Shown: positions 4,798-20,553 of the stretch, piece by piece | Position numbering within the stretch: the stretch's first letter is position 1 | Layout: the number at the start of each line of letters is the position of its first letter | Assembly: GCF_947488715.1 (NCBI RefSeq) | Contig: NZ_CANLAG010000001.1 | Span: forward strand, 620,001-684,000 | DNA: 64,000 nucleotides | Source: an uncultured Tateyamaria sp. | GTDB taxonomy: Bacteria; Pseudomonadota; Alphaproteobacteria; Rhodobacterales; Rhodobacteraceae | Direction of reading: 5' to 3' | The notes under the pieces: model-generated | Told to the model about the DNA's origin: nothing | The model's database searches: none | Seen by the model: only the letters and a program-made list of their open reading frames with translations | Translations under genes and position numbers: made by a program

Positions 4798-6108
4798 ATG
4801 AGCCCGGTTGAAATCGGCATGTTGTCCGTGCTGGCGATTGTCACGCTGGTCTATCTGGGGCTCTACATCCCCGTGGCGCTGGGCCTTGTGTCCTTTGTGA
4901 CCATCTGGATCATCTCGGGCAAATCCATCCTCGCCTTCAATTTTCTCAAGATCGCGGTGGGTGACGGGGTCACGGAATACGAATTTGCCACGATCCCACT
5001 GTTCACCCTCATGGGCTTGCTTGTGTCCAAGGCGGGATTGGGCCGCGACATCTACGAAGTGATGAACTCCGCCTTTCGGCGCGTGTTGGCAGGGGTCGGC
5101 ATGGCCACCGTGGGGGCCAATGCGGTCTTTGCCGCGATCACCGGTTCGTCCATCGCGTCGGCCTCGGTCTTTACCAAGATCTCGGTGCCCGAGATGCTGC
5201 GGTTCAACTACAACAAACGCTTTGCCGTGGGCGTTGTGGCGGGGTCGTCCGTTTTGGGCATGATCATCCCGCCCTCTGCGATGTTGATCATCTACTCCTT
5301 CGTGGCCGAACAATCGGTGGGCCACATGTTCCTCGCGGGCATCATTCCCGGCCTGATCCTGACCGCTGCCTATATCGTGGCCATCTACGCCATGGCGCGG
5401 CTTTGGCCGTCGTACATCGGGTCAGACATTGCCGTCGACGACAGCGCGGGCCTGAGCACGTCGGAAATGATCTCCAAGGCGTGGCCGGTTGTTGTCCTCA
5501 TCATTCTGGTGCTGGGCGGCATCTACACCGGCTGGCTCACCCCGGTCGAGGCGGGGGCCGCCGGTGCCTCGCTGGCGCTTATCGTCGCGCTGGTGCGGCG
5601 CTCTATCAACTGGTCCGGGTTCTGGTCCACTCTGGTCGAAACCGGGCACATCACGGCCGCGATCCTGCTGCTGATCACCATGGCCTCCTTCTACAGTCGG
5701 ATGCTCGGCTTTGCGGGCCTGCCAAACGAACTCAACGCCGTGCTCAACGCGTGGGAGCTGTCCTTCTTCCAGATCATGCTGATCTACGTTCTGCTGATGC
5801 TGGTCCTCGGCACCCTGCTGGACACCGCCTCGATCATCCTGATCGTGGTCCCGCTCTTTATCACACTGATCGAGGAAATGGGGCTCAGCCTGATCTGGTT
5901 CGGCATCGTCACCGTCATCGGCGCAGAGATCGGATTGCTGACGCCGCCGCTCGGGATTTCCTGCTTTGTGATCAAAAGCACGCTCAACCGGCGCGACATC
6001 AGCCTCAAGGACGTCTTTCTGGGCGCGCTTCCCTTTGCGGCCATCATGCTCTGTGTGCTCATCCTGCTGATCCGCTATCCGGTTCTCTCCACCGCCCTGC
6101 TTAACTAG
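4798..6108 (+). CDS. TRAP transporter large permease (DctM)
   Basis: Large, multi-helix permease subunit of the TRAP system, 436 residues, which carries the sodium-coupled elevator transport step. DctM signatures include the GSSIASASVFTKISVPEM block, MIIPPSAMLIIYSFVAEQS, and LLTPPLGISCFVIKS near the end. It starts three bases after the small permease stop, so the subunits are translationally coupled. With the receptor at 3070 and the small permease at 4177 it makes a complete transporter. Confidence 0.93.
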   Translation: MSPVEIGMLSVLAIVTLVYLGLYIPVALGLVSFVTIWIISGKSILAFNFLKIAVGDGVTEYEFATIPLFTLMGLLVSKAGLGRDIYEVMNSAFRRVLAGVGMATVGANAVFAAITGSSIASASVFTKISVPEMLRFNYNKRFAVGVVAGSSVLGMIIPPSAMLIIYSFVAEQSVGHMFLAGIIPGLILTAAYIVAIYAMARLWPSYIGSDIAVDDSAGLSTSEMISKAWPVVVLIILVLGGIYTGWLTPVEAGAAGASLALIVALVRRSINWSGFWSTLVETGHITAAILLLITMASFYSRMLGFAGLPNELNAVLNAWELSFFQIMLIYVLLMLVLGTLLDTASIILIVVPLFITLIEEMGLSLIWFGIVTVIGAEIGLLTPPLGISCFVIKSTLNRRDISLKDVFLGALPFAAIMLCVLILLIRYPVLSTALLN

Positions 6109-12415: not shown

Positions 12416-12814
12416 CTAGACCGTTGCCATCGTCAGCAGCAGATAGGCCAGAACCATCGATCCCATCGAGCCGCCGACAAAGCCAAGGATGCGCAGGAAC
12501 GGAATCCCGGTGTAATACAGCACCATGAACGCCGCGCGGCCTGCAATGATGATCAGCGTCACCCATTCAGCGGTTGCACCCGTCAGGCCCGTCATCTGCC
12601 CTGCGATCAAGAGCGGGACAATGTAGGCGGCGGATTCAACCTGATTCTGATAGGCACGCTGGATGCGCAACCCAAGCGGCGACTTCTGCACAGCGGGGCG
12701 ATTGGACGAAAACCCAAAGCCAAAGCCCTGGGTGGCGTAGGTGTACATGATCTCCAGACCAACGGCCAAAAGCGTGATGATGGCAAAGGAGACAAGAGCG
12801 GTTGTGAATGTCAT
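12416..12814 (-). CDS. MAPEG family membrane protein
   Basis: Small four-helix integral membrane protein of 132 residues. MAPEG proteins include microsomal glutathione transferases. Visible are a first helix (ALVSFAIITLLAVGLEIMY), the family motif region RIQRAYQNQVESAAYIVPLL, then two helices with AAFMVLYYTGIPFLRILGF and a C-terminal helix. I use the ATG at 12814; a TTG at 12826 in the same frame sits directly on the AAGGA sequence that serves as ribosome site. It is the last gene of the leftward operon behind the TetR gene. A detoxification role fits the dehalogenase neighbours but is inferred. Confidence 0.8.
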   Translation of the reverse strand: MTFTTALVSFAIITLLAVGLEIMYTYATQGFGFGFSSNRPAVQKSPLGLRIQRAYQNQVESAAYIVPLLIAGQMTGLTGATAEWVTLIIIAGRAAFMVLYYTGIPFLRILGFVGGSMGSMVLAYLLLTMATV

Positions 12815-12868: not shown

Positions 12869-13840
12869 TCACTGCGCGGCAAGCGCGTTCAGCCAGTCGG
12901 CGCTGATACGTCCGATGGCCACGGGCTGGTCCTCCTGCGCAAAGTGCAGGCCCGCCCCGCCGTAACGGATGTCGATGTTGCTGAAATGCGCCCCGATCCA
13001 ATGGGCGACCTGAGGCGGGATCAGGACACCGGGATCGAAGTAGATCAACAGCTTGGGCGTCTCGGAGGTTGTCAGCCACGCATTGTTGGCCTCGAACACC
13101 GCAACATTGCGCGCAGGCGCACCGCCAATCGGCAGCTCATTCGGCCACATCAGCAACGGCTTGCGATCCGCCTCATTCAGGAACGGCGCGCGGTAGGTGT
13201 CCATTTCCTCCGCACGCAAGGGGCGCAACACCGATGTTGGCAAAATCTGTTCGATGAACACGTTCTGCTTGATCAACAACTCCGGCCCTGCCTCTGCATC
13301 ACGAAAGGCCCGGAACGTGTCGGCAAAAGGGCCAAACGCGCTGATGTCGTCCATCGGAAAGACAGGGGCCACCAGGGCCTCCATAAAGATCACGGCCTTG
13401 ATGCGGTCCGGGTTCTCGCGCGCCCAGGTCAGCCCCAGAACCGATCCCCAATCGTGGATCACAAGCGTCACGTCAGACAGCTCAAGCGCATCCATGAACC
13501 CGTCGATGTAAGCGTAGTGGTCCTGAAAGGTGTAGCCGAGGTCCGGCTTGTCCGATTGGCCAAAGCCAATCAGGTCGGGCGCAATGACCTGACCCTGATC
13601 CTCCAGAAACGGCATCACGTTGCGCCACAGGTAAGAGGATGTCGGCTGCCCATGCAAAAAGACAATCGGATCCCCGGACCCGGCCGTCAGATAGTGCATT
13701 TGCGATCCGTTGACCGTGACAAATTCCGAGGCCTGCGGCGCTTTGATGGCGATGCGGGGGTCCAGGTCAGAACCGCCCTGCGCAAGCATTGATGTTGTCC
13801 AAAGCACCATGACGGCGCAGAACGCATAGAGATGTTTCAT
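12869..13840 (-). CDS. exported haloalkane dehalogenase-like alpha/beta hydrolase
   Basis: Alpha/beta hydrolase of 323 residues close to the HLD-II group (LinB, DhaA, Renilla luciferase). It has the nucleophile elbow HDWGS (Asp130, with halide-binding Trp131), catalytic acid Glu154 (FMEAL) and catalytic His299 (LHFAQED). The oxyanion/halide loop reads HGQPTSSYLW, with Gln65 where LinB and DhaA have the halide-binding Asn. An N-terminal signal peptide (residues 1-20, ending SMLAQ) suggests a periplasmic enzyme, unlike LinB's core sequence. Second-to-last gene of the TetR-flanked operon, 24 bases after the SDR gene. Halide release is likely but not certain; a luciferase- or esterase-like activity is possible. 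Confidence 0.82.
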   Translation of the reverse strand: MKHLYAFCAVMVLWTTSMLAQGGSDLDPRIAIKAPQASEFVTVNGSQMHYLTAGSGDPIVFLHGQPTSSYLWRNVMPFLEDQGQVIAPDLIGFGQSDKPDLGYTFQDHYAYIDGFMDALELSDVTLVIHDWGSVLGLTWARENPDRIKAVIFMEALVAPVFPMDDISAFGPFADTFRAFRDAEAGPELLIKQNVFIEQILPTSVLRPLRAEEMDTYRAPFLNEADRKPLLMWPNELPIGGAPARNVAVFEANNAWLTTSETPKLLIYFDPGVLIPPQVAHWIGAHFSNIDIRYGGAGLHFAQEDQPVAIGRISADWLNALAAQ

Positions 13841-13863: not shown

Positions 13864-14700
13864 TCAAACACGCGGCTTTACTTTGAGGGTGTCGGGGGCC
13901 GCCTTGTTCATCAGCATGCCCCACATGCCGGCACTCATCCCGCGGGTCAGTACACGCCGCCCCATCCAATCCATGACGCGGTTGAGGGTGCCGGGAATGA
14001 CGATGGGTTTGTTCTGCATCACGCCCTGCAGGGCGGCGCGCACGACGGGCCGGGTCTTCATCGGCGGCATGGGCATCGTCTTGAGATCGATGTCCGTTCT
14101 GTCCGTAAAGGCGGGCGTTTTCGTGGGCCCCGGCACCAGAACCGTGGAATGAATGCCCGTGCCTTGCAGCTCGCTGTTCAGCGCCGCGCCCAGGTTCATC
14201 ACATAGGCCTTGGCCCCGGCATAGTTCGCCAGCAACGGCGTCGCCTGAAGGCTGGCAGTCGAGGACACAAAGATCAGACCCGCCGTCTTGCGCTTTTCCA
14301 TGAAGAGGGTGCCGAACCCATGCGCCATGTCCAGATGCGACGCCGCATTCAGGCGCTGCATCGCCTGCAAATCGGGCAAGGGGATGCGCAGCAATGCGCC
14401 CATGTGATCGGCACCGGCGTTGGACACGATCAGGCCCAGATCAATGTCTGCAATGGCTGTTTTCAGCGGGGCCAGAAACCCCGGATCGCTCAGATCCAGC
14501 GCGATGGTGCGTGTCTGGATGCCCGACCGTTTGGACAGGCTGGCCGCCACACCATCAAGCGCATCCTGACAGCGCGACACGAGCACAAGGTTCATGCCCA
14601 TATCCGCCAGTTGATCCGCAAATTCGCGCCCAATGCCTGATGTGGCCCCGGTGACCATGGCCCAGGGGCCAAAACGGGAAAGGAATGCTGTCTTGTTCAT
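13864..14700 (-). CDS. short-chain dehydrogenase/reductase
   Basis: SDR of 278 residues. Cofactor motif TGATSGIG (about 18-25), SNAGAD in place of NNAG, the catalytic Ser in FVSSTASLQ, and YAGAK as the catalytic Tyr-Lys pair. The C-terminal tail (VLTRGMSAGMWGMLMN) is like the DltE/YqjQ-type short-chain dehydrogenases. It lies between the SRPBCC gene and the dehalogenase-like gene with short gaps (12 and 23 bases), so all are co-transcribed. It could oxidise the alcohol that a dehalogenase releases, but this link is only positional. Confidence 0.85.
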   Translation of the reverse strand: MNKTAFLSRFGPWAMVTGATSGIGREFADQLADMGMNLVLVSRCQDALDGVAASLSKRSGIQTRTIALDLSDPGFLAPLKTAIADIDLGLIVSNAGADHMGALLRIPLPDLQAMQRLNAASHLDMAHGFGTLFMEKRKTAGLIFVSSTASLQATPLLANYAGAKAYVMNLGAALNSELQGTGIHSTVLVPGPTKTPAFTDRTDIDLKTMPMPPMKTRPVVRAALQGVMQNKPIVIPGTLNRVMDWMGRRVLTRGMSAGMWGMLMNKAAPDTLKVKPRV

Positions 14701-14712
14701 ATCACCACCCCC

Positions 14713-15321
14713 TCAGGACACAGCCACAAAGCCGCCGCCGTAGCGGTCGACAAGGTTCTGCAACCCCGGCTTCATGTAACGGTTCACAAGCCGTGGCACG
14801 CCGACCTGACCCATAAGGCCCTTGCGCCAGTACTGCCGCCACACCAGCAGGCTCTTGCCGCCCTGCACCGGTTCGACTGTGAAAACGCCCAGATGATCCG
14901 AGATGGGGACAAGGACGTTCGAGCGGTCCTTGTTGATCGAATAGGCATAGGCGTCGCGACCATTGTCATAGGGAATGTCCTCGGTCAGCAGATCCCCCTC
15001 GAACTCGCATTGGCGGGTCAAGAGCGGCGCAAAGCTGCGGTTGGTTGATGTCGGCTCCAGCACATAGGCGCGTGCGATGCCGGGGAACCATTCGTTGAGC
15101 CGGATGTGAGAGCCGACCAATTCCCAGACCGACGACGGGGCTGCGTCCAGTTGCAGGGCAAAGGTCTGGTCCAATGCGGCACTGGTGACGGTGTCGACCC
15201 GGAAATTTCCAATGGTGCGTTGGTCATGCGGGAATCTGCTGCCAAGCGCGAACGCCTGCCCTGCGATGGATGCGGCAAGGGCGGCACCGCTCCCCATCAA
15301 AATGTCTCTGCGTGTGATCAT
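14713..15321 (-). CDS. exported SRPBCC (START-like) lipid/ligand-binding protein
   Basis: Protein of 202 residues with an N-terminal MITRRDILMGSGAALAAS export signal; the R-R near the start followed by a mild hydrophobic stretch looks Tat-like. The mature part begins with a beta strand-helix pattern typical of polyketide cyclase/SRPBCC proteins (AAPSSVWELVGSHIRLNEW, then GDLLTEDIPYDNGR and LLVWRQYWRKG). These proteins bind hydrophobic ligands or act as cyclases/dehydratases. It is exported to the same compartment as the dehalogenase-like enzyme in its operon. Exact role unknown. Confidence 0.75.
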   Translation of the reverse strand: MITRRDILMGSGAALAASIAGQAFALGSRFPHDQRTIGNFRVDTVTSAALDQTFALQLDAAPSSVWELVGSHIRLNEWFPGIARAYVLEPTSTNRSFAPLLTRQCEFEGDLLTEDIPYDNGRDAYAYSINKDRSNVLVPISDHLGVFTVEPVQGGKSLLVWRQYWRKGLMGQVGVPRLVNRYMKPGLQNLVDRYGGGFVAVS

Positions 15322-15324
15322 GGG

Positions 15325-15675
15325 TTATGTCCTTTTCTGGAGGTTTCGGGGGGCTTGGTCGGCCGTCAGAAAATCGCCGCGCGCTTCGGTGAACGACGTC
15401 GCCGCGTCATTGCGAAAGGCCGTCGCGCCGTCCGGCAGCCAGTCGTTGTCCATTTCCTTTGCAACGGCATTCGGGGCCGAAATGAACCGGCCCTCGTGAT
15501 GAATCAGATCGACGAACACGTCGGCCTTGTAGGCAGATGCCAGCTCTGCCGCCGTCTGCGTGTCGCTGCCCAGGATCGACACCACATAGAGCGGCGAGGG
15601 CCCGTTTTGCGCCAGTGCTGGCATGGCAAAGCTGGCGACAAGGACGGGGACGGCAATGGAATAGACAAGTTGCAT
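15325..15675 (-). CDS. small exported protein of unknown function
   Basis: Protein of 116 residues with a clear signal peptide (QLVYSIAVPVLVASFAMPALAQ) and a mature domain of about 94 residues that I do not recognise; it contains YKADVFVDLIHHEGRF and AVAKEMDNDW. The ATG at 15675 follows AGGAG, so I exclude the 14 upstream residues. Its stop is four bases before the SRPBCC start, which makes the two likely partners. First protein-coding gene of normal size in the TetR-controlled leftward operon. Confidence 0.65.
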   Translation of the reverse strand: MQLVYSIAVPVLVASFAMPALAQNGPSPLYVVSILGSDTQTAAELASAYKADVFVDLIHHEGRFISAPNAVAKEMDNDWLPDGATAFRNDAATSFTEARGDFLTADQAPRNLQKRT

Positions 15676-15777
15676 GAGGACGCTCCTGTTGGGTGTGCGT
15701 TGGCACAGCGGTGCCATGCGCCGGCACGGGGACCGACGGCGTTGGTTTCGAATTTTTCAGGTGTCAGGTCGTGGCGG

Positions 15778-15876
15778 TCAGATGCCCTTGATACGTCCGC
15801 TTGTGCCGCCCAACGCGTGGGCCAACGTCGCCAATGCCCTGAGACCCAGAGGGTCGACGGTGGTCATGTCATTCAA
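15778..15876 (-). CDS. possible 32-residue leader or small protein
   Basis: A short frame starting at TTG (15874-15876) with a near-consensus AAGGAGG six bases upstream, ending in TGA at 15778-15780. The peptide begins MNDMTTVDPLGLRALATLAH and ends GRIKGI; no signal peptide or membrane segment is evident. It lies directly downstream of the palindromic TetR operator at 15892-15905 and about 100 bases before the exported protein at 15675, so it would be the first translated frame of the operon. The ribosome site is the best evidence; coding status is otherwise unproven. Confidence 0.4.
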   Translation of the reverse strand: MNDMTTVDPLGLRALATLAHALGGTSGRIKGI

Positions 15877-15891
15877 TGGCTTCCTCCTTAT

Positions 15892-15905
15892 ACCAACCGG
15901 TTGGT
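15892..15905. promoter_or_regulatory. TetR operator copy 1 (14-bp palindrome)
   Basis: A perfect palindrome, ACCAACCGGTTGGT, lies just 3' of the tetR stop and immediately before the leftward operon. The same sequence with one change occurs at 16531-16544 before tetR. The A-A-C-C-G-G-T-T core is a classical TetR/AcrR operator form. It would let the regulator control the dehalogenase operon. Confidence 0.7.
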
Positions 15906-15924
15906 TATTTTCCGGCCAAAATTT

Positions 15925-16518
15925 TTACCCGATGAGATACCGCCGCGCGCGATCCGCTCCATCAAGTATCGCCTGGGGGCTTTTGGTGAGCTTTGACGTC
16001 ACCAGCGTTGCATTCATGTTGTCCTGCAAATCTGTGGCAAGCTGTGCCGCTGGCAGGTCATGCACCAGCTTGCCCGACGCGGCGAGGTCCTCGACAATCC
16101 GGGCGTAATAACCTTCAAAGACCGCAAAGGCCTTGTTGACGGCTTCACGCACGCCGTCACTGCTCACGGCCAACTCCACGCCGATATTAACAAACGGGCA
16201 GCCCCGCATCCGCCCATCCGCCTCATAGAGCGATTTGTGGCTTTGGTAGATGCGTTGATAAATCGACTGAAGACGCTCCAGAGGATCAGAAAACGCCTCA
16301 AAACTCTCCTTGAAAACCCAGCCCTCCGTGCGTTCAAGCGCACGGCCCACAGCCGCGATGGCAATGGCCTCCTTGGAGCGGTAGTGCTGGTATACCGTGG
16401 CCTTGTTCATGCCCGCGGCATCGCTCAGGGCATTCATGTTCGTGGCATGATAGCTCGACGTCCAGAACAACTCGATTGCCGCGTCCAGGATCTGGGTTTT
16501 GGTCTCTTGCGTGGTCAT
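15925..16518 (-). CDS. TetR/AcrR family repressor
   Basis: Regulator of 197 residues. The N-terminal HTH spans about residues 8-55 (TQILDAAIELFWTSSYHATNMNALSDAAGMNKATVYQHYRSKEAI contains the recognition helix), followed by a TetR_C helical ligand domain. Several cysteine-free helices and RMRGCPFVNIGVELAVSS are typical of the subgroup near YcdC/LfrR-like repressors. It lies between two copies of a palindrome, at 15892 and 16531, so autoregulation plus control of the leftward operon is likely. The right-hand copy is in the divergent gap before the fluoroacetate-dehalogenase-like gene, which may also be controlled. Confidence 0.88.
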   Translation of the reverse strand: MTTQETKTQILDAAIELFWTSSYHATNMNALSDAAGMNKATVYQHYRSKEAIAIAAVGRALERTEGWVFKESFEAFSDPLERLQSIYQRIYQSHKSLYEADGRMRGCPFVNIGVELAVSSDGVREAVNKAFAVFEGYYARIVEDLAASGKLVHDLPAAQLATDLQDNMNATLVTSKLTKSPQAILDGADRARRYLIG

Positions 16519-16530
16519 GCGAGACCAATA

Positions 16531-16544
16531 ACCAACCGGTTAGT
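16531..16544. promoter_or_regulatory. TetR operator copy 2
   Basis: ACCAACCGGTTAGT lies 13 bases upstream of the tetR start codon and differs by one base from the perfect palindrome at 15892. The position fits autorepression of tetR and possibly control of the rightward transcript. Confidence 0.7.
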
Positions 16545-16739
16545 CTGAGTCCAGCTTTCCCTTGATCACCTGTCTGTGAGCGCTCAACGCCGCCACCGCG
16601 CCTGTCCTTCGGTCGCTTGACCGCCCAAGCACGCTCCCCAAACTGCCACAGCATTTTCGCCGAAATCATTGCTCAGTTTTTCCGGACAGTGCTCGATGAA
16701 AATCCGGCTAGACTGCGGCAAACAAATCCCGAGGTCGCG

Positions 16740-17642
16740 ATGTTCGAAGGTTTTAGAGAAGAGGTCGTACAGGGCGACGGCGTGGACATATTCGTCCGTC
16801 ACGCCGGGCCACGCGACGCGCCGGGGCTGATGTTGCTGCATGGCTATCCGCAGACGTCCGCGATGTGGCACCGCGTGGCGCCGCGGCTCACCGCGAATTA
16901 CCATGTCATCTGTCCCGACCTGCGTGGTTACGGTCGCTCGGGCAAACCGGACACCGACGCGGATCACACGCCCTATTCCAAACGCGTCATGGCCCGCGAC
17001 ATGATCCACGTCATGGGCCATTTTGGACATCGCCGGTTTTTTCTGGGCGCGCATGATCGTGGCGCGCGTGTGGCGCACCGGTTGGCGCTGGATTTCGAGG
17101 ACCGTGTGAACGCGATGGTGCTCTTGGACATTGCCCCCACCCGCGAGATGTACCGCGACGCGGGAACAGCCTTCGCCACGGCCTACTGGCACTGGTATTT
17201 CTTGATCCAGGCGCACCCGCTGCCGGAACAGATCATCGGCACTGACCCCCAATCGTTCTGGAAACTGAAATGCCTCAATCAGGCCAAGGGCGGCAATCCA
17301 TTCGCGGCGGATGCGCTGGCGGAATATCTGGACGCCTTCAGCACCAAGGCCGCCATCCACGCCTCCTGCGAGGATTACCGCGCTGCGGCCACCATAGACA
17401 TCCAGCACGACGATGAAGACTGCGGCCGCAAATTTGCGACGCCCACGCGGGTCTTTTGGGCCAAGCGTGGTGCAATTGCGGCCTGCTTTGACGCGCTGGC
17501 CCTGTGGCGCGAACGCGCGGCCCATGTGGACGGCGAGATGCTGGATGCCACGCATTACATGGCCGAAGAAATCCCCCAGGACATCGCCACCCGGATGGCG
17601 GATTTCTTTGCCCTGCACACCGCAACAGAGGCCAAAGCATGA
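16740..17642 (+). CDS. fluoroacetate/haloacetate dehalogenase-like hydrolase
   Basis: Alpha/beta hydrolase of 300 residues with the full residue set of fluoroacetate dehalogenase: nucleophile Asp106 in HDRGARVAHR, carboxylate-binding Arg107 and Arg110, catalytic acid Asp130 (LLDIAPT), halide-pocket His151 and Trp152 (YWHWYF), Tyr213 and catalytic His272 (ATHYMAEE). Enzymes of this family turn haloacetate into glycolate by attack on carbon; a few members act on other small 2-haloacids. I use the ATG at 16740 because the 41 extra upstream residues are not conserved. The stop overlaps the LeuC-like start (ATGA). Cytoplasmic. Activity is predicted, not shown. Confidence 0.85.
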   Translation: MFEGFREEVVQGDGVDIFVRHAGPRDAPGLMLLHGYPQTSAMWHRVAPRLTANYHVICPDLRGYGRSGKPDTDADHTPYSKRVMARDMIHVMGHFGHRRFFLGAHDRGARVAHRLALDFEDRVNAMVLLDIAPTREMYRDAGTAFATAYWHWYFLIQAHPLPEQIIGTDPQSFWKLKCLNQAKGGNPFAADALAEYLDAFSTKAAIHASCEDYRAAATIDIQHDDEDCGRKFATPTRVFWAKRGAIAACFDALALWRERAAHVDGEMLDATHYMAEEIPQDIATRMADFFALHTATEAKA

Positions 17643-19014
17643 GCCGCACGCTCTATGACAAGCTGGTCGATGCCCACAAGGTCTGCGATCTGCCCGACGG
17701 CGACATGCTGGTCTATGTCGATTTCCACATCATGAACGAATACACCAGCCCACAGGCGTTCTCCGGCCTCGACCACAAGGGCCTCAAGGTCTGGCGTCCC
17801 CAGGCGCACCTGTCCGTGGTCGACCACGTGAACGCCACACGCCAGCGCGACCCGCATGATGCGGCGTCCAAGCTCCTTATCGACAATCTCGAGGCCAACT
17901 GCCGCAAGCACGGCATCGCTTTTTACGGGTTGGGCGACCCGCGCCAAGGCATTGAACACGTCGTCGTGCCGGAACAGGGGCTCGTGGCACCGGGGATGCT
18001 CATCGTATGCGGCGACAGCCACACGACCACCTACGGCGCGTTCGGGGCCTTGGGGTTCGGCATCGGCACCTCCGAGGTCGAACACGTTCTGGCGACGCAA
18101 ACGCTCCGCTACAAACGGCTCAGGACCATGCGGGTCAATGTCGAAGGTGCTTTGGCACCGGGCGTAACGGCCAAGGACATCATCATGCAAGTTGTCCAAG
18201 TCGTTGGCGCAGGCGGTGCCAACGGGTTTGCCGTGGAATTCACCGGCAACACCATCTTTGCGCAGTCCATGGCGGGCCGGATGACCATCTGCAACATGGC
18301 TGTCGAACTGGGCGCGCGGGCAGCCCTGATTGCCGCCGACCAGACCGCTTTAACGCCGCCTCGACCGGGCTGCGCTACGACGCAGAAACCTGGGCCTCGG
18401 ACGCGGGCGCCACCTATGACGCGACCTATGACATCGACGCCGCCACAATCGCACCGCTGGTCAGTTGGGGGACAAGCCCGGATCAATCGGTTGCCATCGA
18501 CGGCACCGTGCCCGACACCAGCACCGCCACCACACCCAAGGCGCAACAGGCCCTCGCACGCGCGCTGGACTACATGGGGCTGGAACCCGGCCAGCCGGTC
18601 ACCGACATCCGCATCGACAGCGCCTTTATCGGGTCATGCACCAACAGCCGTATCGAGGATCTTCGCGCCGCGGCGTCTGTAATCCGGGGCCGCACCGTCG
18701 CCCCCGGCGTGAACGCGATTGTCGTGCCCGGATCGGCCATGACGAGACTTCAGGCCGAAGCCGAAGGTCTGGATACCATTTTCACAGAGGCCGGTTTTGA
18801 CTGGCGACCAGAGAGCGGCTGTTCGATGTGTCTGGCCATGAACGACGACATCGCCATGGACGGCGAGCGCGTCGCCTCGTCGACCAACCGCAACTTTGAG
18901 GGACGTCAGGGGCGCGGGGCGCGCACCCATCTGATGAGCCCCGCCATGGTCGCCGCCGCCGCCCTGTCCGGGCATCTGGCTGACGTGCGCGATTTCGAGA
19001 AAGGGACCGACTGA
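17639..19014 (+). pseudogene. LeuC-like hydro-lyase large subunit with a one-base frameshift
   Basis: Aconitase-family large subunit (3-isopropylmalate dehydratase type) that needs a 4Fe-4S cluster. The first part (frame of 17639) runs through [20 protein letters not shown] to IAADQTA near 18348. The rest continues one frame back with [10 protein letters not shown] and reaches the cluster cysteines in GSCTNSR and CSMCLAMN. Adding one T to the TTT at 18349-18351 joins both parts into 458 residues, the normal length. The reading VDFHIMNEYTSPQAF differs from biosynthetic LeuC (usually DRHLVHEV), so this is probably a catabolic paralogue. Whether it is a real lesion or a base-calling error cannot be decided here. 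Confidence 0.8.
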
Positions 19015-19619
19015 TGCCCAGAACGCTGAATGGCCTTGCCGCCGCACTCCCGCTCGCCAATGTCGACACCGACGTGATCATGCCCAAACGGTTTCTGGTG
19101 ACCATCACCCGCGAGGGCCTCGCCGATGGGGCGCTGGCCGATCTGAGGTTCGACGAGACGGGCAAAAAACACCCGGATTTCGTGCTGAACAAACCCCCGT
19201 GGAACAACGCATCGATCCTGATCGTGGGTGACAACTTTGGCTGCGGGTCCAGCCGTGAACACGCCGTATGGGGGCTGATGCAATACGGTGTCCACGCGAT
19301 CATCGGGACCAGCTTTGCGGGCATCTTCTTTGACAATGCGCGCAAGAACGGGCTGGCCCTGCCCATCATCACAGCGGACATCCGCGACCGGTTGCTTGCA
19401 CTGGCGGACCATCCCGACGGGCTGCACATCACCATCGACATCACGGCGCGGCAATTGTCCCACGGCAACGAGACGCTGGATTTCACAATGGATGATGCAA
19501 CCCGCGCCGCTTTGTTGGAAGATCGCGATGACACGCTGGACAGCCTGAAACACGCCGACGCGATCCGCCAATTCGAGGCGGGTCTGACCGAAACCATGCG
19601 TGTGACCGTGGCGCAATAG
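19014..19619 (+). CDS. LeuD-like hydro-lyase small subunit
   Basis: Small (swivel) subunit of a 3-isopropylmalate-dehydratase-type enzyme, 201 residues. It has NVDTDVIMPKRFL near the N-terminus and the substrate-loop block GDNFGCGSSREHAVW (about 73-87). Its ATG overlaps the stop of the LeuC-like gene by one base, so the subunits are coupled. With the large-subunit lesion, this gene could only work if the frameshift is an artefact or another LeuC complements it. The pair probably hydrates or isomerises an unsaturated or hydroxy diacid; leucine synthesis is unlikely given the dehalogenase and LysR neighbours. Confidence 0.85.
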   Translation: MPRTLNGLAAALPLANVDTDVIMPKRFLVTITREGLADGALADLRFDETGKKHPDFVLNKPPWNNASILIVGDNFGCGSSREHAVWGLMQYGVHAIIGTSFAGIFFDNARKNGLALPIITADIRDRLLALADHPDGLHITIDITARQLSHGNETLDFTMDDATRAALLEDRDDTLDSLKHADAIRQFEAGLTETMRVTVAQ

Positions 19620-19638: not shown

Positions 19639-20553
19639 TTGGAACTCAGACAGCTAGAGTGTTTCGTCGCGGTCGCCGAGGAATTGCACTTCCGCAAGGC
19701 AAGCGAACGGCTGGGGCTTAGCTCCTCCGCCCTGTCGGATCGGATCACCGCGCTCGAAACCGAACTTGGCGCGCCCCTGTTGTTCCGAACCACGCGACAG
19801 GTCAGCCTGACACAGGCGGGTGCCGAATTGCTGCGCGATGCGAAAAAGATCCTGTCAGACGTCGAAACGTCGGTCGCATCTGTCCGCCACATGTCTGCAA
19901 CCGATCTCCGGACGTTGCGGATCAGCGGCGTGGACGAAGCGATCTCAATGCTCTTGCCTCAGGCCCTGGCCAGGTTCCGCGCGCGGCACCTCAATGTACA
20001 CGCGCAAATCCTCGAAATATCCGGCTCCGATTTCCATGCCCAACAGCTTGCCAGCTATCATACGGACATCGCCTTCATTCGCACGCCCTCCCAAGAGGAT
20101 TTCGTCACCAGCCGCCTTCTCTACAGTCAAAGCGTGGTGGTGGTGACGTCGGAAAACCATCCGCTCGCCACCAGACACCACCTCGGCCCCGCCGATTTGC
20201 TGGACGAGCCCATTGTCGGCTATCCAAAACACGCGCGCCCGATCCTGCACGAAATGCTGTGGCAGGGGTTCCGCGCGCTGGGCCGGCAGCCCAACATCGT
20301 GTGCGAAGTGATCGACAAATCCACGTTGCTGCAATTTGTCCTGCACGGGCTTGGCATCGCACTGGCCCCGGCTTGGGTCCAAACCATCGCACCGCGCGGC
20401 CTGTCGTTTGTGCCGTTTGATCACAGCCAGAATGGGATCGACCTTTATGTCGCCTATCGCAAGACCGGCAACAGCGCATTGATCGCAGAGTTCGTGGACG
20501 CCGTAACCGCCGTCGCCAGCCAAAACGCCCGCGAAAATGAAAATTCCGGCTAG
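19639..20553 (+). CDS. LysR family regulator
   Basis: Regulator of 304 residues starting at TTG (19639), which gives MELRQLECFVAVAEELHF, the standard LysR N-terminus; there is no in-frame ATG nearby. Residues 1-60 are the winged HTH (ASERLGLSSSALSDRITALE), and the rest is the two-subdomain periplasmic-binding-like ligand domain (ISGVDEAISMLLPQALARF and EPIVGYPKHARPI). It follows leuD by 19 bases on the same strand, an unusual co-directional position for a LysR gene, so it may be transcribed with the dehalogenase/hydro-lyase operon it controls. Confidence 0.85.
   Translation: MELRQLECFVAVAEELHFRKASERLGLSSSALSDRITALETELGAPLLFRTTRQVSLTQAGAELLRDAKKILSDVETSVASVRHMSATDLRTLRISGVDEAISMLLPQALARFRARHLNVHAQILEISGSDFHAQQLASYHTDIAFIRTPSQEDFVTSRLLYSQSVVVVTSENHPLATRHHLGPADLLDEPIVGYPKHARPILHEMLWQGFRALGRQPNIVCEVIDKSTLLQFVLHGLGIALAPAWVQTIAPRGLSFVPFDHSQNGIDLYVAYRKTGNSALIAEFVDAVTAVASQNARENENSG

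Follow-up and report, generated by a model that had tools for sequence, protein, structure and literature searches.

The window, a stretch of 64,000 nucleotides from an uncultured Tateyamaria sp., carries a TetR-type repressor gene (tetR) that has a matching palindrome on each side. It is likely that this TetR is an autorepressor that acts on its own promoter through one operator and on the downstream left operon through the other, and that the operon on its right is separate. The arrangement resembles a common self-regulated gene and the small operon that belongs to it, not a network responding to pollutants, because a related bacterium keeps both sites without dehalogenase-like neighbours. 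The features concerned are the following.

12416-12814, minus strand: MAPEG membrane protein, the last gene assigned to the left operon
12869-13840, minus strand: haloalkane-dehalogenase-like (HLD-like) alpha/beta hydrolase; HGQP replaces HGNP, and a signal peptide seems present (by eye)
13864-14700, minus strand: short-chain dehydrogenase (SDR); best NCBIfam match mycolate reductase, below cut-off
14713-15321, minus strand: SRPBCC / Polyketide_cyc2 protein with a Tat-like leader (by eye)
15325-15675, minus strand: small protein of 116 aa, apparently with a signal peptide (by eye); unmatched in Pfam and NCBIfam
15778-15876, minus strand: 32-codon reading frame with a TTG start, a probable SRPBCC gene remnant, with a good Shine-Dalgarno sequence behind O2
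15892-15905: O2, probable operator, perfect ACCAACCGGTTGGT, 19 nt 3' of the tetR stop
15925-16518, minus strand: TetR repressor gene, 197 aa, TetR_N plus TetR_C_13 (LmrA-YxaF-like C-terminal domain), above Pfam gathering scores
16531-16544: O1, probable operator, one-change ACCAACCGGTTAGT, 12 nt 5' of the tetR ATG; probable autoregulatory site
16740-17642, plus strand: fluoroacetate-dehalogenase-like hydrolase, first gene of a divergent, probably independent operon
17639-19014, plus strand: leuC-like gene, split by a reading-frame change near 18340-18360
19014-19619, plus strand: leuD-like gene
19639-20553, plus strand: LysR regulator, which also accompanies hydrolase-leuCD in the related genome G240

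The TetR protein combines an N-terminal helix-turn-helix (PF00440, 54.6 bits against a cut-off of 24) with the C-terminal ligand domain TetR_C_13 (PF16925, 51.1 bits against a cut-off of 27). The first-pass annotation had described a palindrome that is perfect 3' of tetR and has one change 5' of it, and both copies are present as O2 and O1. The next reading frame has a Shine-Dalgarno-like AAGGAGG directly behind O2. O1 is located in a 221-bp divergent intergenic region, 195 nt from the start of the right-hand hydrolase. A promoter scan of 15700-16800 found no sigma-70-like promoter, so the position of O1 and O2 relative to -35 and -10 elements cannot be fixed. The genome-wide search that had been suggested for the palindrome showed that exact matches to the pattern ACCAACCGGTTNGT occur at these two tetR sites only in the whole 4.13-Mb genome. 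From the window's base composition, the genome would be expected to hold 0.017 perfect sites and 0.73 sites with one mismatch. In the window, O1 and O2 are the sole sites with at most one mismatch; with up to three mismatches there are 9 sites compared to 2.94 expected, and no shuffle reached 9. The whole genome has 4 sites with at most one mismatch, of which the two besides O1 and O2 are both within long open frames, and 36 sites with at most two mismatches compared to 21 for the reversed control. When 14 of the 34 sites away from tetR, including both one-mismatch sites, were viewed for a wider regulon, 13 turned out to lie within open frames 100 or more codons long, which is a weak test in GC-rich DNA; the site at L106 is inside none of the three reading frames viewed.

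Support for O1 and O2 comes from position and conservation, not from motif frequency. There is no enrichment of the motif in the family, as the pattern is present in 32 of 394 genomes compared to 37 of 394 for the reversed control, which was counted by hand. The perfect palindrome is found in 13 of the 394 genomes, our own among them. The 12 perfect copies in other family genomes comprise 2 before TetR_C_13 regulator genes (L020 and L033, 11 nt before the start), 1 before paaG-paaI and 9 within long open frames. The copy before paaG-paaI (perfect ACCAACCGGTTGGT, L018 1501-1514) is a probable PaaR-type operator. At 18 other family loci with the pattern, no protein similar to the window TetR was found within about 1.5 kb, a search which a distant TetR could escape and in which G237 yielded no locus.

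The closest relative of the TetR is that of Cognatishimia maritima (L003), which is 89% identical (one locus, from a single scan of genome contigs). Both sites are present at its tetR at the identical distances of 12 and 19 nt, and the upstream one is the same asymmetric O1 variant. O2 is perfectly conserved in the two species, along with much of the surrounding sequence. The DNA farther upstream of O1 is poorly conserved, and the gene present there in C. maritima differs from that in the window and is OtnK-like (by eye). The whole C. maritima genome has 3 sites with at most one mismatch: the two tetR sites and a third within a long open frame. The close tetR loci behind this comparison are two, those of our genome and C. 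maritima. Among the 20 genomes of the genus, tetR was found at E <= 1e-12 in our own genome only; the family sample of 394 gave our own and one 31%-identical match at E <= 1e-15, and all TetRs among the 30 matches listed from 225 plasmid records are below 30% identity.

A class-wide search at E <= 1e-13 was positive for 21 of 385 genomes, including our own. The best match apart from our own locus is in G921, which belongs to another family; its TetR is 38% identical over nearly the full length, with the recognition helix NKATLYQHY compared to NKATVYQHY in the window. There, ACCAACTAGGCGGT, identical at 10 of 14 letters, is located 12 nt before the tetR ATG, and ACCAACCAGTCGGT, identical at 12 of 14, follows the tetR stop at a distance of 58 nt. 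No convincing same-strand gene follows the downstream site. Palindromes of the searched types were found within about 1.5 kb at 3 of the 22 class TetR places (L080 to L101), namely, L080 (the G921 locus), L092, where it is close to where tetR should end, and L098; the other 19 have no such palindrome. Apart from that at L080, the TetRs at these places are at most 31% identical. The TetR at L098 is 26% identical, and ACCGACCAGTCGGT (1440-1453) lies about 40 nt ahead of where its gene should begin. A palindrome beside the regulator's own gene is thus conserved with the protein in C. maritima and, in a degenerate form, in G921. O1 and O2 are very probably TetR's own operators, as they are the only exact matches in the genome and C. 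maritima and G921 keep the sites.

In the mechanism that we propose, a TetR dimer would bind to both palindromes. O1, located over or beside the tetR promoter, would mediate autorepression, and O2, between tetR and the next gene, would block transcription into the downstream same-strand operon. A ligand, probably hydrophobic, would release TetR from the operators. O2 could alternatively act as a mere block to read-through from tetR. The divergent hydrolase-leuCD-LysR operon would stand apart as a unit of its own, probably controlled by the LysR that it encodes.

As had been claimed, the left copy of the palindrome precedes an operon with an exported haloalkane-dehalogenase-like enzyme. The genes after O2 are on the same strand as tetR, in the order SRPBCC remnant, small exported protein, SRPBCC, SDR, HLD-like and MAPEG, with the last two presumably forming the end of the operon, which is a likely target of TetR. 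The 3' end of the 32-codon frame matches the C terminus of the C. maritima SRPBCC protein (DNA score reached in 0 of 500 shuffles, protein score in 0 of 2000), and its 5' end gave no significant match to that gene (267 of 500 shuffles). C. maritima has an intact first SRPBCC gene, and at L003 6216-6665 the start of the small exported protein is joined to the last third of the SDR, an apparent deletion. It seems that different parts of a single ancestral operon have disappeared in the window and in C. maritima, and the left operon is variable and partly eroded. In the window, the genes for SRPBCC, SDR, HLD and MAPEG all have open frames. Among 292 genomes of the order, the SRPBCC protein was found in our own genome only; it has matches in three Vibrio records, one of which (12.5 kb) gave no tetR, SDR or HLD match. 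Two other plasmid regions that we inspected do not enter into the evidence.

The HLD-like protein scores 381.6 bits with the NCBIfam haloalkane dehalogenase model PRK03592 (cut-off of 241). Assigned by motif, the Asp nucleophile, Trp, Glu and His of the catalytic pentad are present (HDWG, FMEAL and GLHFAQED). At the position of the halide-stabilizing Asn, the window has Gln (HGQP), compared to HGNP in 10 of 10 congener copies. According to the accessible text of PMC10619424, the halide is stabilized in HLD-II enzymes by two residues, an Asn and a Trp. As Gln replaces this Asn, the dehalogenase activity of the window protein seems in doubt. An HLD of this type is present in 10 of the 20 genomes of the genus, including our own. 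Several of the congener copies have Tat-like leaders (by eye). In 6 of the 10 congener HLD loci, which come from 9 genomes, the HLD gene has a MAPEG gene right behind it (L062, L065, L066, L067, L068 and L070). The best site has 4 mismatches at every one of the 10 loci, so the pair of HLD and MAPEG genes is found independently of the window tetR. The HLD of C. maritima, 44% identical, is on the contig that carries tetR, at a distance of about 14 kb, and the best site around this HLD also has 4 mismatches.

The best PDB match of the right-hand hydrolase is Alr0039 (3qyj, E 1.5e-88), and it aligns over its full length with fluoroacetate dehalogenase structures (9c9f, E 2.7e-83; 3r3u, E 4.4e-70). 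It keeps the motifs HDRGAR, WHW, EDYRAA and THYM, in which HDRGAR, HW, EDYR and H are presumably the fluoroacetate dehalogenase active-site motifs. Its family is present in 19 of the 20 genomes of the genus (E <= 1e-40), and we compared the six loci with the closest copies (L071 to L076, 45 to 68% identical). In G240, the hydrolase (68%), leuC, leuD and LysR are found in the same order as in the window and divergent from TRAP-transporter-like genes (by eye); there is no tetR in 11 kb, and within the 600 bp around the hydrolase start no site has fewer than 6 mismatches. The leuC homologue of G240 is a single frame of 459 aa. The frame change at 18340-18360 means that the leuC-like gene of the window is either broken or carries a sequence error. 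At the hydrolases of four other congeners the best nearby site has 4 to 6 mismatches, and ACCNACCGGTNGGT is present in 0 of the 6 loci. A LysR gene adjoins the hydrolase in 4 of the 6 (L071 to L074) and is absent beside those of L075 and L076; the LysR proteins of L072 to L074 are 35 to 37% identical to that of the window. Leu-type sequences (leuC- or leuD-like) are present in 3 of the 6 (L071, L072 and L073). LysR is the likely regulator of the hydrolase-leuCD unit. In G589 (L075 5291-11349), an HLD-MAPEG pair and a 45%-identical hydrolase are located about 4.3 kb apart on one strand, with no tetR or site. The block common to the window and G240 upstream of the hydrolase (16656-16684) is weak, as 8 of 500 shuffles reached its score, and is given no weight here. 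O1 appears to go with tetR and not with the hydrolase, because C. maritima keeps O1 with a different gene upstream and the G240 hydrolase unit is without tetR and site.

That the palindromes are chance or coding by-products is hardly credible. The lack of enrichment in the family (with its hand-counted control) and the location of 9 of the 12 perfect copies within long open frames fit such an origin, but both sites in the window are outside genes and paired at one tetR, and their position is conserved in two species and also, with degenerate letters, beside a TetR that is 38% identical. It is also unlikely that O1 and O2 serve autoregulation only, with the left operon as decaying cargo and O2 as a relic. 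The first gene shrunk to a probable 32-codon remnant, the loss of most of the next genes in C. maritima through a different deletion and the second G921 site without a clear gene after it all agree with this, whereas the perfect conservation of O2 with much of its flanking sequence in both species and the SRPBCC, SDR, HLD and MAPEG genes that are still open frames argue against it.

The first-pass annotation had gone further and proposed that one TetR coordinates the left operon through O2 and the right operon through O1 in response to organohalides, which we consider quite improbable. O1 is indeed within the divergent intergenic region, each operon has an alpha/beta hydrolase of the dehalogenase type, the right-hand one retains its motifs, and the proximity of both types in G589 may be added as a weak point. 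However, C. maritima and, as weaker evidence, G921 keep O1 without an adjacent hydrolase, the G240 hydrolase unit lacks TetR and site and travels with LysR, the other congener hydrolases have no better site than 4 to 6 mismatches, 195 nt separate O1 from the hydrolase start, and the 10 congener HLD loci and the C. maritima HLD have no site with fewer than 4 mismatches. In the relatives, the operator was not kept together with both operons. On this gene-order comparison, common control of both operons was rejected. An organohalide-response regulon is likewise unsupported, as the window HLD-like protein is without the conserved halide-binding Asn. Of the notion that TetR is flanked by matching operators, the operators themselves hold as very probable; the assignment of the right one to the hydrolase does not. 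It is very doubtful as well that, in this strain alone, a mobile TetR cassette between two dehalogenase-type units represses both (HLD-like/MAPEG through O2 and hydrolase/leuCD through O1) in response to one halogenated metabolite. In the titles and abstract openings of the papers listed by our literature searches, we found no report of a TetR controlling both dehalogenase types, and the accessible part of PMC6100074 yielded nothing on regulation.

For the preferred autorepressor with its own left operon, there are known parallels. By its letters, the palindrome is of the operator type that has been described for PaaR and TTHB023. PaaR of Burkholderia cenocepacia is a TetR repressor with the operator ACCGACCGGTCGGT, according to the text available from PMC2770484; this is a 14-bp palindrome like that of the window, and two symmetric positions differ. 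Unlike PaaR, the window tetR has no paa genes beside it, as a scan of 10 proteins, TetR and its nine neighbours, gave no paa enzyme. In the available part of PMC7022988, the Thermus thermophilus TetR TTHB023 has TTTACCGACCGGTTGG (-153) and CCTACCGACCGGTCGG (-7) before its own gene, so it also has two sites near its own gene, but both are upstream and its other targets are fatty-acid genes. The window TetR further shares the TetR_C_13 and TetR_C_13_2 domain models, above the Pfam cut-off, with LmrA/YxaF-type TetRs of Bacillus, and the YxaF structure 1sgm is among its PDB sequence matches; this likeness is one of protein domains, and the neighbouring genes differ. A Methylocystis plasmid (L117 4225-5504) has a parallel architecture, with a TetR_C_13 gene followed by the palindrome ACCAGAACGCGTGTTCTGGT (4857-4876) and an SRPBCC gene, but the TetR is just 21% identical and the palindrome is another one. 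In Rhodococcus, the TetR-type repressor DhaR is linked to the haloalkane dehalogenase gene dhaA, in an operon and a host other than those of the window.

The window thus provides a well-anchored TetR-operator pair of the PaaR/TTHB023 type, in which the 12-nt spacing is the same down to 38% protein identity, and this pair is useful for assigning operators to TetR_C_13 regulators. Adjacency does not imply co-regulation here, because both hydrolase units and the tetR cassette each occur alone in relatives.
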